DNA from: Faecalibacterium taiwanense
Lineage (GTDB): Bacteria > Bacillota > Clostridia > Oscillospirales > Ruminococcaceae
Reading direction: 5' to 3'
Length of the DNA stretch: 64,000 bases
NCBI RefSeq assembly: GCF_036632915.2
Contig: NZ_CP155552.1
Span: 1,612,001 to 1,676,000 of the forward strand
In this document: one piece after another, positions 10,525-14,623 of the stretch
How the letters are laid out: every line of letters starts with the position of its first letter
How positions within the stretch are numbered: position 1 is the first letter of the stretch
The notes under the pieces: generated by a model
What the model was told of the DNA's origin: nothing
The model's input: only the letters and a program-made list of their open reading frames with translations
Databases searched by the model: none
Position numbers and translations under genes: made by a program

Positions 10525-11391
10525 ATGGCAAAACGATATTCCAATGCCGCGCACTCAAAAAGACGAAAACAGACTTCTCATGTGCTCAAAAATACGGTCA
10601 TTCTGCTTTTTTGCGCAGTGGGCATCTGGTTTGGCAGCTCACTCTGGCATGCAGCGCTGACTCTGCAGACAGCTCAGCCAGCGGAAAGCATCGCCGGTGA
10701 AGAATTCCGTCCGCAGGTCGGTGATCCGCCTTACCGCGTGGTGATCGATGCCGGGCACGGTGGAGCAGACCCGGGTGCAAGGGGAGTGATCGAAGAAAAA
10801 GATATGACCGCAGCAACCGCCTCGGAACTGATCCGGTTGCTGCAGCAGGACTCTAATTTTATTCCGCTGCAGACCCGTGACAGCTTTGATGAAACCACTA
10901 CGCCCGCCCAGCGTGCCGCCAGAGCGGACGAACAGGCACCGCAGCTGCTGCTTTCCATCCACGGCAACTCAGCTGCAAATGGCTCCACTGCATCCGGCTT
11001 TGAGTGCTATCCGGCAGTGCCGGGCCGGACTTGGCATCAGGAAAGCTTTTACTTTGCGCAGCTGCTTGCCAAAGGAATGCAGGCTGCAGGAGCATCTCTG
11101 CGTGGGCGCGGGGGAGTCCGATACATTTATTATCTGGAAAACGATCAGAAGCAACTGGTGGAAAGCACCCACACCGAGGTGCGTGCAGAGCGAAGCTTTA
11201 CGTTGCTGGAAGATGTAAATTGTCCGGCAGTGCTGGCAGAGCAATGCTTTGTAACGAATGAAGCAGATGTTGCACAGTTCGGCAGCGAAGAAGGTTGTAA
11301 AAAAACAGCCCGCGTTTATTACGAAGCGATCTGTGCATACTTTGGCACACAGCCGCAGGCCGAGCAGCTTGCCGGGTTCACTTTAAATTAA
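10525..11391 (+). CDS. Membrane-anchored N-acetylmuramoyl-L-alanine amidase (Amidase_3)
   Basis: A 288-residue protein with a basic N-terminus, one membrane segment at about 22-45 and an extracytoplasmic Amidase_3 domain (70-275). The zinc ligands are visible: H78 in DAGHGG, E90 or E91 in VIEEKD, and H146 in SIHGN. The catalytic glutamate is E239 in LAEQCFVTN. It should cleave the bond between MurNAc and L-Ala in peptidoglycan. CwlD, the spore-cortex amidase, has this size and architecture, so a CwlD-like role is possible in view of the spoIIIA genes, but the family is broad. It is the last rightward gene before the dif-like site. Confidence 0.85.
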   Translation: MAKRYSNAAHSKRRKQTSHVLKNTVILLFCAVGIWFGSSLWHAALTLQTAQPAESIAGEEFRPQVGDPPYRVVIDAGHGGADPGARGVIEEKDMTAATASELIRLLQQDSNFIPLQTRDSFDETTTPAQRAARADEQAPQLLLSIHGNSAANGSTASGFECYPAVPGRTWHQESFYFAQLLAKGMQAAGASLRGRGGVRYIYYLENDQKQLVESTHTEVRAERSFTLLEDVNCPAVLAEQCFVTNEADVAQFGSEEGCKKTARVYYEAICAYFGTQPQAEQLAGFTLN

Positions 11392-11527: not shown

Positions 11528-11555
11528 TTTTCGTATAATGCACGTTATGCGAAAT
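11528..11555. other. dif-like Xer recombination site
   Basis: A 28-base site of 11-6-11 form. The left arm is TTTTCGTATAA (11528-11538), the centre TGCACG (11539-11544) and the right arm TTATGCGAAAT (11545-11555). The arms are inverted repeats at 9 of 11 positions. The right arm agrees with the E. coli dif right arm (TTATGTTAAAT) at 9 of 11 positions, and the left arm shares its inner ATAA. The recombinase gene is the next gene to the right, and gene strand bias flips here. Identity as dif is inference from form, neighbours and orientation. Confidence 0.68.
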
Positions 11556-11687
11556 ATAGGGAAGTGAAAAATCTCTATTTTCCTGAATCTGGCCTTTTTC
11601 CGCGACCTGCGGATCTGCAGCCATCTGTAATACCGTATGATTCAACTTTTGCGTTTTTTATATTTTTGTGTCTCATTAGTATTTTGG

Positions 11688-11696
11688 TGCTACAAT
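11688..11696 (+). promoter_or_regulatory. Extended -10-like element in the gene-free region
   Basis: TGC-TACAAT on the plus strand without a good -35. Any transcript would run toward, and antisense to, the recombinase gene 3' end. No product is identified. Confidence 0.3.
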
Positions 11697-11990
11697 CTTT
11701 TTATGGACTTACAAATTACAAAGCTGCACAGTCTGCCGCTGCTATGCGCGCTTGCATTTTATTTTTCCAGATTCTCTTTTTATGTTGCTATAAGTTCTGT
11801 GGTCATTCTGATCTTTTTATTTTTCTGTGAACGACCATTTGCTCGTGCGATTTCAAATCGCTGGCCAGATCACAGCTTATCATTCCATTATTTATATAAA
11901 TATATCTATAAAAATACCGCCGATGACATATCCGCACTTTGGACGCGTCACAGACGGTATCGTTCCATTTTATGGGTATTCTTATGTGGT

Positions 11991-13196
11991 TCAGGAATTT
12001 CCGTTTCCAGCGTTCGCATCAGGCTTCATTGCAAGCACGGAAGCATCCAGCCCGATGCCATCCTGAGCCGCACCCTCAAAGGCTTTCATGGGCGCAGACG
12101 AAAGTTCCTCATCCAGAGCTGAATCCTCTGCTGTCTCCCCTGTTTCCTTTTCTGTTGTATCCAAGATGTGAGAAGATGCTTTGGGCTTTTTGACCTTGCC
12201 CAGCGGGTTTTCTTCAATAGCCGCGCGCACCTGAAATTCCTGTAGGTGCGTATAAATTTGTGTGGTAGACACGTTGCTGTGGCCCAAAAGCTGCTTGAGT
12301 GTAAGGATATCTACATTGCCGGTCTGATACATCAGAGTTGCGGCAGTGTGGCGCAGCTTATGTGTGGAAAAGCCTTTTAATCCGGCTGCTTTCATTGCAC
12401 CGGTCACTAGCTGTTCTACCCTGCGGTTCGAGATACGCTCTTTGCGCCGTCGGGTAATAAAGACCGCCTTTTCCTGCGGCAGAAGCCCCTCCATCGTATT
12501 GCGTTTGCCCAGATACAGCCGCAATGCTTCCATGCAGGCATCATTCAGATAAACCATGCGCTCCTTGTGGCCCTTGCCAAACAGGCGTATCTGGCGGTTT
12601 TCCAAATCAATGTCGTCCAGATTCATGCCGACAAGCTCTGCCAGACGCATTCCACAGTTCAAAAACAGCGTCACCATGCAATAATCCCGCTCCGGAAAAT
12701 CGCTTTGGGTCTGCGTGCTTTCCAATAACTCCATGGACTGCTCCGCCGTCAGATATTTGGGCAGTACCTTATCCTGTTTGGGTGGGTGGATGGCCGCAGT
12801 TGGATCTGTATCCAGCCGGTTGACCTGATTGACCAGGTAATCATAAAAGCCGTGCAGGCTTGCCAGCCGCCGGGCCGTTGAGGACTTTTTGTTGCCGCAC
12901 TCGCGGTTTAAAAAGTACAGATATTCGTAGATATCCTCCTTTGTTACGGAGGCCCAGAATGCGGTGTCCAGCCCTTTGGGGTCGATATCCTTCATCTCAC
13001 TGTCTTCGGGCACAAGCCCACGGCGGCGCTTCATAAAACGGCTGAATCCGCGCAGATCACAGTAGTAGCTGAACGCCGTGTTTGCGCTTTTGCCCGCGAT
13101 CACTTCCAGATAGCGGACGTATTCCACAATGTCCGGCGCAGCATCATCGAAGGGCTTGTGCTTGCCGGGATTTTTCTCGTCCAGATAGATCGACAT
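11991..13196 (-). CDS. Xer-type tyrosine recombinase with an acidic C-terminal tail
   Basis: A 401-residue tyrosine recombinase. An N-terminal SAM-like DNA-binding domain (about 20-135) precedes the catalytic domain, with R184 (NCGMRLAEL), K208, H279-x2-R282 (STHKLRH), H306 (LLGHSNVS) and nucleophile Y315 (QIYTH). It is XerC/XerD-like but longer: the usual protein ends near residue 330. Here an acidic, low-complexity tail of about 65 residues follows. It lies 11 bases behind radA, with AAGAGG before the ATG. The dif-like site lies about 440 bases beyond its 3' end. It may be the single Xer enzyme of this chromosome; a phage integrase is less likely given the conserved housekeeping context. 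Confidence 0.85.
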   Translation of the reverse strand: MSIYLDEKNPGKHKPFDDAAPDIVEYVRYLEVIAGKSANTAFSYYCDLRGFSRFMKRRRGLVPEDSEMKDIDPKGLDTAFWASVTKEDIYEYLYFLNRECGNKKSSTARRLASLHGFYDYLVNQVNRLDTDPTAAIHPPKQDKVLPKYLTAEQSMELLESTQTQSDFPERDYCMVTLFLNCGMRLAELVGMNLDDIDLENRQIRLFGKGHKERMVYLNDACMEALRLYLGKRNTMEGLLPQEKAVFITRRRKERISNRRVEQLVTGAMKAAGLKGFSTHKLRHTAATLMYQTGNVDILTLKQLLGHSNVSTTQIYTHLQEFQVRAAIEENPLGKVKKPKASSHILDTTEKETGETAEDSALDEELSSAPMKAFEGAAQDGIGLDASVLAMKPDANAGNGNS

Positions 13197-13207: not shown

Positions 13208-14623
13208 TTATAAGCGGTCAGATTTCAGGGCATTGATCGCATCGGTGATATAAGCCGCGCCGATCAGCTGCATTCCAGGATAATCTGCCGGACTCAGATG
13301 ATTCAGGCTGTGCTTCGGGATCACCGCACGTTCAAAGCCGATACGCTCTGCCTCATGCAGGCGCTGTTCCAGATTGGGTACGCTGCGCACTTCACCGCCA
13401 AGGCCGACCTCGCCAATGGCGATCAGCTTATCGCTGACGGGCCTGTCCAGCAGCGAGGAGACCATACTCAAGCAGACAGAAAGATCACAGGCAGTATCAC
13501 GCAGCGCAATGCCGCCCACGATGTTGATATATACATCCAGGTTGCCAAAGAAATACCCTGCACGCTTTTCCAGCACAGCAATCAGCAGATTCATGCGGTT
13601 GTAGTCGTAGCCGCTGCAGGCACGGCGCGGTGCTGGAAAATTGGTTTTGGTTGCAAGGGCCTGAATTTCGCTCAAAATGGGACGGCTGCCCTCCATGGTA
13701 CAGGCCACACAGTTGCCGGAAACGCCAAGAGGACGGCCTTCCAGCAGCATCTGTGAAGGGTTTTCGATCTCAGCAAGGCCCTGCCCCGTCATATCAAACA
13801 TGCCCAGCTCATTGGTGGAGCCATAACGGTTCTTGGCCGCACGCAGGATGCGGTACGGCAGCATTTTATCGCCCTCAAAGTAAAGCACCGTATCCACGAT
13901 ATGCTCCATGACTTTGGGGCCTGCAATGGCACCGTCCTTGTTCACATGGCCCACAATGAACATGGGAATCTCCTGCTTTTTGGCCACGGCCAGCAGGCGG
14001 GCCGCACTTTCCTTGACCTGACTTACCGTACCGGCGGAGGACGAGATATCCATGCAGCGCATCGTCTGGATGGAGTCGATGACCACGAGGTCCGGCTTTT
14101 CTTTTTCGATCAGGCCGCAGATCTCGTCCACATCATTCTCCGCTGCCAGAAAGATGTTATCCTGCGGCACTTTCAGCCGGGCAGCGCGCAGCTTGACCTG
14201 CCGCACCGATTCCTCGCCAGTGATATACAAAACGCTGTGCTGGTTGGAAATAGCACCGCACAGCTGCAGAAGCATAGTAGATTTGCCCACACCCGGCTCA
14301 CCGCTCAAAAGCACAACGCCGCCCAGCACAATGCCGCCGCCAAGTACACGGTCCAGCTCCGAAATGCCGGTCAGAATACGGCTTTTTTCTTCGGTCATGC
14401 TGATCTCAGAAAGGCGTTTTGCGGTCAGGGTGGTCACCCCTTCCGGGCGGGCGGCTGCCGCCTGTTTGGCTGCGGCAGTACCTGCTTTGGGGGCTTCCGC
14501 TACAACGTCCTCGTTCATCGTGTTCCAGCTGCCGCAGCTTGGGCAGCGGCCCATCCAGCGGGGGCTTGTCTCGCCGCAGTTGGAACACACATATACAGTT
14601 TTCAGTTTTGGTTCCTTCATCAA
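13208..14623 (-). CDS. radA: DNA repair protein RadA (Sms)
   Basis: A 471-residue RadA. A four-cysteine zinc finger (C13, C16, C27, C30) is followed by a RecA-like ATPase with Walker A GEPGVGKST at 108-116, the RadA-specific KNRYG motif, and a C-terminal Lon-like domain. RadA is a hexameric helicase that helps branch migration during recombination. The start MMKEPK has two possible ATGs, of which the first has AGGAG. It is first in a two-gene operon with the tyrosine recombinase, linking two recombination functions near the presumed terminus. Confidence 0.95.
   Translation of the reverse strand: MMKEPKLKTVYVCSNCGETSPRWMGRCPSCGSWNTMNEDVVAEAPKAGTAAAKQAAAARPEGVTTLTAKRLSEISMTEEKSRILTGISELDRVLGGGIVLGGVVLLSGEPGVGKSTMLLQLCGAISNQHSVLYITGEESVRQVKLRAARLKVPQDNIFLAAENDVDEICGLIEKEKPDLVVIDSIQTMRCMDISSSAGTVSQVKESAARLLAVAKKQEIPMFIVGHVNKDGAIAGPKVMEHIVDTVLYFEGDKMLPYRILRAAKNRYGSTNELGMFDMTGQGLAEIENPSQMLLEGRPLGVSGNCVACTMEGSRPILSEIQALATKTNFPAPRRACSGYDYNRMNLLIAVLEKRAGYFFGNLDVYINIVGGIALRDTACDLSVCLSMVSSLLDRPVSDKLIAIGEVGLGGEVRSVPNLEQRLHEAERIGFERAVIPKHSLNHLSPADYPGMQLIGAAYITDAINALKSDRL

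Follow-up and report, generated by a model that had tools for sequence, protein, structure and literature searches.

A dif-like site beside a Xer-type recombinase gene in Faecalibacterium taiwanense, and similar sites in Clostridia and their phages

The locus and its place in the chromosome

In this study we examined a window of 64,000 nucleotides from the chromosome of Faecalibacterium taiwanense (contig NZ_CP155552.1, positions 1,612,001 to 1,676,000), in which a 28-base site of 11-6-11 form had been proposed as a dif-like Xer site. The features around it, in window coordinates, are the following.

10525 to 11391, plus strand: N-acetylmuramoyl-L-alanine amidase gene (Pfam PF01520), the last rightward gene before the site
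11297, no strand: peak of cumulative G-C across the window, 231 bases to the left of the site
11528 to 11555, plus strand: dif-like site TTTTCGTATAATGCACGTTATGCGAAAT, 28 bp, 11-6-11, read as TTTTCGTATAA TGCACG TTATGCGAAAT
11556 to 11571, plus strand: one-sided conserved flank ATAGGGAAGTGAAAAA; right of the site 6 of the 7 motif letters match, left of it 3
11991 to 13196, minus strand: xer, single clostridial Xer-type tyrosine recombinase of 401 aa (Pfam Phage_integrase)
13208 to 14623, minus strand: radA/sms, the gene immediately upstream of xer (over the cut-off of NCBIfam TIGR00416 with 566 bits)

The site is present at the proposed place with the arms described, and both arm scores of the original prediction were recovered on recomputation: the arms mirror each other at 9 of 11 positions, and the right arm agrees with E. 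coli dif (as given in the accessible part of PMC3025954) at 9 of 11, the left arm at 7 of 11, with 19 of the 28 letters in common overall. A search for a second copy, which had been suggested as a check, placed the 28-mer at one position in the genome (2,955,389 bases, one contig) with up to 3 mismatches, and the reversed control gave none. Within the window the core of the site was likewise found at one place, matched on both strands, against a chance expectation of 0.02 per shuffled window at up to 3 mismatches. The site lies 435 bp past the stop of xer, on its 3' side. The nearest gene to the right, said to encode a Xer-type recombinase, is so if the nearest recognisable one is meant, as a 161-aa open reading frame (11637-12122) intervenes; it overlaps the end of xer on the opposite strand and has no Pfam or NCBIfam match.

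With dnaA at 166,365 and the site at 1,623,528, the two arms from dnaA to the site measure 1,457,163 and 1,498,226 bp, placing the site 20.5 kb from the antipode of dnaA. GC skew was taken from forty sampled 20-kb stretches of the chromosome and the window cut in four. It was positive in 20 of the 21 pieces from 225 kb to the window piece with the site (the sole non-positive one at 900 kb, with some other values near zero), negative in all 13 pieces from the site to 2.39 Mb, and of mixed sign in the other 10 sampled pieces around the origin. The sign therefore turns at the site, in the sampled stretches and in the cumulative G-C of the window, and the proposal of a chromosome terminus here agrees with this turn and with the position near the dnaA antipode. 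A flip in gene direction had also been claimed. By reading of the open reading frame list, 11 of 12 likely genes left of the site are on the plus strand. The counts of 13 of 14 and 38 of 51 were not reproduced: a crude greedy count gave 7 plus and 3 minus on the left, and 18 plus and 28 minus on the right. Gene direction is the weak part of the terminus evidence. What the window holds is a single 11-6-11 site at the replication terminus, as in known dif/Xer systems. Two properties count against reading it as dif, namely its imperfect symmetry (9 of 11) and its place outside the usual position relative to xer.

The palindrome and its flank in related genomes

The family set comprised 110 xer loci, out of 129 genomes with a recombinase match, and a site meant a 28-bp palindrome no more than 500 bp 5' of xer in which 9 or more of the 11 arm pairs match and 7 or more of the 8 inner letters are those of AAAT/ATTT. 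Sites of the type ATTTCGCTAAAT-N4-ATTTAGCGAAAT were found at 84 of these loci, at distances of up to about 370 bp 5' of the xer start, and 69 of them are perfect palindromes; one of the 84, the AT-rich L158, is probably a chance match. Palindromes with at least 10 arm pairs occurred in none of 2200 shuffled upstream sequences. The commonest arm, ATTTCGCTAAA, accounts for 42 of the 84. The mirrored pentamers at arm positions 3-7 are identical in 77 of the 84, and 20 of these differ from the commonest TTCGC; such mirrored changes fit one protein reading both arms. The 26 family loci lacking a site by this criterion count against the dif reading; among them L124, L181, L187 and L197 carry variants, and two loci have less than 110 bp of upstream sequence. 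Named records gave a site at 18 of 34 loci (L236 left out), 16 within 520 bp 5' and two on the 3' side, and the 16 remaining by the criterion are also counted against that reading. With a stricter pattern, 123 of 396 family genomes matched, 116 once and seven more than once (reversed-pattern control, 0 of 396). The xer gene is thus linked to its own site, 5' at 84 of the 110 family loci and 3' in the window; because a radA relative lies in the flanks of only 20 of the 110, gene context does not explain this linkage.

Eight relatives from the genus were fetched, and all seven with an xer at 78-87% identity keep the site 3' of xer, in line with the suggestion that the palindrome should be conserved in close relatives. 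In four of them 416-427 bp separate it from the end of the xer match and in one 863 bp; in two it lies about 2.5 and 3.8 kb away. Its arms mirror at 8-11 of 11 positions; with the window included, 8 of 8 genus sites are 3' of xer, at 0.4-3.8 kb. In G071, whose xer has 46% identity, a perfect palindrome lies 168 bp 5' of xer.

We also found that a motif, NNAGGGGAGNNAAAA in the family, abuts the palindrome on one side. When at least 5 of 7 letters of AGGGGAG were asked for beside 83 sites (the 84 without L158), the flank was on the xer side in 56, on the other side in 13, on both in one and on neither in 13, so that it is one-sided in 69 of the 83, compared with matches on either side in 18% of shuffled flanks; the 14 sites without a clear one-sided flank and this rate in shuffled flanks count against the dif reading. 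Both flank and spacer have a side at 66 sites, and in 65 of these the A-rich spacer half faces the flank. In the named set, which overlaps the family set (L203 is L076, and L214 is 89% alike to L177), the flank was present at 12 of 18 sites and spacer polarity agreed in 11 of 11 scorable ones, and by eye the flank stands beside 8 of 8 genus sites. The one-sided AGGGGAG-like flank makes the palindrome polar. As a guess, it may orient the synapse or dock FtsK gamma. Leading and lagging occurrences in 844 kb sampled were 73:28 for AGGGRAG and 30:9 for GAGAAGGG, with a ratio of 1.38 for all G5A2 heptamers and 1.15 for GGGRAGNG; a KOPS-like role of the flank is left as a guess because the last ratio is 1.15 and the flank points away from the site. 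The idea that the flank follows chromosome polarity was dropped, as the window and G330 have it in different orientations with respect to dnaA.

Position near the terminus was also observed in relatives. In G330 (one contig, dnaA at base 1) the site is at 0.487 of the circle, with a skew of +0.062 in the 20 kb before it and -0.029 in the 20 kb after. As fractions of the circle from dnaA, the site or xer lies at 0.54 in G120, 0.48 in G103, 0.52 in G043, 0.55 in G018 and 0.47 in G004. With six pieces sampled per genome (five for G004), skew in G120, G043 and G004 went from positive to negative at xer or the site; it was less clean in G018, where the same change holds except in the farthest left piece (-0.032), and in G103, where the expected sign appears on the left only in the adjacent 20 kb. 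G004 shows the sign change at xer and has no site by the criterion. In G107 (C1:2089476) xer lies at 0.30 of the circle from dnaA by the shorter way, with no site near xer; the skew turn at about 2.13-2.25 Mb is 40-160 kb from xer at 2.09 Mb, which counts against the dif reading, and a rearranged or misassembled genome is offered as an explanation.

Some genomes hold more than one palindrome. G322 has two extra sites with the chromosomal type of flank (L433:9660 on C22 and L434:9923 on C39) besides a third on C1. They could stem from second replicons, from a mixture of strains or from genuinely additional sites. G080 carries two (L444:4293 and L445:5946) with window-like ATAA/TTAT inner arms and different spacers.

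The recombinase and its spread

The window recombinase scored below the NCBIfam cut-offs of all four named Xer classes: 213 bits against 335 for XerC, 206 against 330 for XerD, 193 against 220 for XerA and 141 against 267 for XerS. Six further members of its group were also under these four cut-offs, and the controls passed, a Sutcliffiella protein as XerD and a Stutzerimonas protein as XerC. Its catalytic motifs align with XerD and XerA structures, and R184, K208, H279, R282, H306 and Y315, which we take to be its catalytic residues, are invariant in a 30-row alignment; the site therefore has beside it a Xer tyrosine recombinase with the catalytic residues, and this protein would be the one that acts on it. 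Among PDB matches, its likeness to XerH (1e-12 by single sequence, 1e-29 by profile) is weaker than that to XerD and XerA.

In a quick maximum-likelihood tree of 73 proteins, 38 of the window group, 27 XerCD and 8 XerS fell on separate branches, with SH-aLRT support of 93, 99 and 99 (95 being the mark for strong). The XerCD rows of this tree were 26 of 45 weaker loci (L238-L282), labelled by expectation, and one XerD-search match; 8 of the 34 better named loci were taken in, and XerH, XerL and XerA lie outside it. As far as these sequence comparisons go, the window recombinase groups apart from XerCD and XerS.

A relative of the recombinase was detected in 129 of 148 family genomes (E <= 1e-40), in four of them twice, and in 189 of 293 class genomes (E <= 1e-45), mostly one per genome, with 104 lacking it. 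Among the named records, a relative occurs for instance in Faecalibacterium, Gemmiger, Acutalibacter, Pseudoflavonifractor, Peptoniphilus, Clostridium hydrogeniformans and Proteiniclasticum. Eight of 398 phylum genomes had a XerS match over the cut-off, none of them in the class. The genome of F. taiwanense has 17 Phage_integrase matches, of which the next two after xer are 327-aa proteins, much alike by eye and probably mobile; its XerD-model matches comprise none over the cut-off and two under it, and the second, weaker one of these counts against the dif reading. An FtsK gamma domain was found in 12 of 12 genomes examined.

The first alternative is a canonical XerC/XerD dif, the adjacent gene being merely one of the pair. 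The 28-bp length, the 11-6-11 form and the agreement with E. coli dif at 19 of 28 letters speak for it, as does the fact that XerC and XerD are the best NCBIfam models for the recombinase. Against this, both scores are far under cut-offs that the control XerC and XerD proteins pass, and the XerD model, the one used for the survey, is exceeded in 3 of 148 family genomes, the own genome not among them, with four more at 289-310 bits. The two arms also change together, as one protein reading both would need, and the tree separates the recombinase from XerCD with support of 93 and 99. We regard a XerC/XerD dif as unlikely. The likeness to single-recombinase systems that had been pointed out earlier is borne out by the same scores, by the rarity of XerD in the family and by the site 5' of xer at 84 of 110 loci.

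A XerD-like gene was seen within a few kb of the single xer in some loci (L440:3825-4739, L332:6798-7688, L442:1409-2374 and L441), with a similar small protein, by eye, between the two genes in L440 and L332; it is possibly a XerCD relic or part of a two-recombinase variant.

Phages at the site and the reading of the locus

The site was also observed in viral contigs, 8 by the main pattern and 13 by a second outer-arm type; no viral contig matched a third pattern, TTTCGCAAAAT-N4. Of 80 viral loci bearing xer, the best 12 (E <= 2e-68; L327 and L332-L342) were looked at for phage genes, and inovirus-type Rep or Zot was over the Pfam cut-off in 9 (L327, L332-L335, L337 and L340-L342), Rep/Zot being below it in L336 and L338 and L339 lying outside the scan. 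Zot in such loci presumably belongs to the phage assembly ATPase family. The palindrome stands between the phage genes and xer in 7 of these 9, and no palindrome was found in L334 and L342. L335 and L324 come from the same contig, and so do L332 and L412. Lower among the xer-bearing viral loci, L357 has a G2P-type Rep too.

A provirus was recognised in G010, where xer and the site are separated by a 10.7 kb insert that carries Rep and Zot. At the far end of the insert stands the intact site, and the xer-proximal copy keeps the left arm and spacer intact with a degenerate right arm; about 27 shared bases, with a one-base indel, precede the site copies at both ends. Such ends are what integration by the host recombinase would be expected to leave. 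G117, of the same genus, has the site some 30 bp away from its xer match and no insert. In G187 the site adjoins a stretch aligning with the xer side of G010 but has reversed polarity, and the distal flank of G010 had no match in the pieces examined. A further 18 phage loci carry the site with no xer relative in the DNA at hand (L325, L326, L328-L331, L411 and L413-L423), and the flank was present in none of them, two being scored on one side only and several being near-copies. The clostridial site seems to be an inovirus integration site as well, probably used through this recombinase.

These observations bear on a second alternative, that the palindrome is an operator, promoter element or RNA hairpin which regulates xer and is conserved through adjacency. 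The 84 family sites close to the xer start would suit it, and a 12-bp stem with a 4-base, A-rich loop could fold. This is at odds with the genus, where the site is 0.4-3.8 kb 3' of xer, with G090 and G053, where it is on a different contig from xer, with its single copy at the skew turn, with the phage cassettes and provirus end at the site, and with the 18 phage loci just named. As the main explanation we consider it very improbable; an additional regulatory role beside the dif function is possible. That the site is the attachment remnant of a mobile element with the adjacent gene as its integrase, as the tyrosine recombinase beside it and the 17 integrase-family matches might suggest, is hardly credible given the lack of a second copy in the genome, the occurrence of the gene in 129 of 148 family genomes (as two copies in four of them), radA and the amidase gene as neighbours, and gene and site kept in 7 of 7 close genus relatives.

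We consider it highly probable that the 28-mer at 11528-11555 serves as chromosomal dif in a clostridial single-recombinase system, which would resolve chromosome dimers. Like subunits of the recombinase (11991-13196) would occupy the two arms, FtsK would bring together two sites of a dimeric chromosome so that they synapse at the closing septum, and strand exchange in the central 6 bp would resolve the dimer. Direction would come to the palindrome from its asymmetric spacer and the one-sided AGGGRAG flank, and filamentous phages are found at the same site, probably using the host recombinase. The spread over Clostridia, the one-sided flank and the inoviruses are additions to the original prediction.

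Judged by the passages accessible in the cited papers, comparable systems are known. XerS/difSL of Streptococcus and Lactococcus has a single recombinase whose gene lies beside the site at the terminus (PMC5357621, PMC2731167), and the window system is alike in all three respects; unlike difSL (31 bp, 11-bp centre) its site is 28 bp with a 6-bp centre, and its protein falls short of the XerS cut-off and outside the XerS branch. XerA/dif of Euryarchaeota combines a single recombinase with an 11-6-11 dif, predicted sites close to xerA and, in one group, a one-sided conserved 13-bp flank (PMC2958812). The clostridial system shares these four features, whereas Archaea are without FtsK, FtsK gamma is present in the clostridial genomes, and the XerA cut-off is not reached. 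Very probably a dif, the system works like XerS/difSL and XerA/dif and by the tests run is a member of neither. XerH/difH of Campylobacter and Helicobacter also has a single recombinase linked to its site in most species (PMC2731167, PMC5357621), with a difH resembling difSL (PMC2731167); it shares linkage with the clostridial system, in which the recombinase matches XerH less well than XerD or XerA. XerL/dif of Legionellales, found through a mobile element integrating at the site, has a single recombinase and a palindromic site near the terminus (PMC9765430), as here, but in other bacteria and with XerL, outside our tree, as a distinct Xer clade according to the same passages.

Inoviruses integrated at dif are known as CTXphi-type elements (PMC5357621, PMC5666396, accessible parts), and the clostridial cassettes at a dif-like site resemble them; those elements use XerCD, whereas one recombinase is at hand in most clostridial genomes examined. 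The available passages on Enterocloster inoviruses mention flanking direct repeats and hold no word starting with 'Xer' (PMC10061712), and the same holds for such a word in those of PMC6813254. In the part of PMC3025954 at hand, dif prediction is limited to strains with XerCD orthologs; of 100 single-chromosome Firmicutes 97 had a predicted dif, and two of the three without one were Clostridium. Among the titles and starts of abstracts listed in a literature search, which covered papers other than subscription papers and preprints, none dealt with a clostridial single-Xer/dif system or with inovirus integration at dif in Clostridia.

A wider reading, which we offer tentatively as something that may well fall short, is that in most Clostridia a single recombinase from a subfamily not yet described has taken the place of XerCD and acts on a palindromic dif linked to its own gene, with the AGGGRAG flank docking or orienting (perhaps FtsK gamma) and inoviruses integrating through the system; the flank would then tell two identical subunits apart. 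If the dif reading of the locus holds, a further single-recombinase system of dimer resolution would cover much of Clostridia, common gut genera included, and how one recombinase on a symmetric site chooses its first cut would become directly testable. It would also explain where many clostridial inoviruses integrate, and the site would mark the terminus in genomes with weak skew.

Four of the phage contigs with the site, L326, L328, L329 and L331, are closely alike; their dif-like palindrome is perfect and lacks the chromosomal flank. These contigs are probably from tailed phages, with a terminase-like gene seen below the Pfam cut-off only, and they may integrate via the host recombinase or resolve their own dimers.
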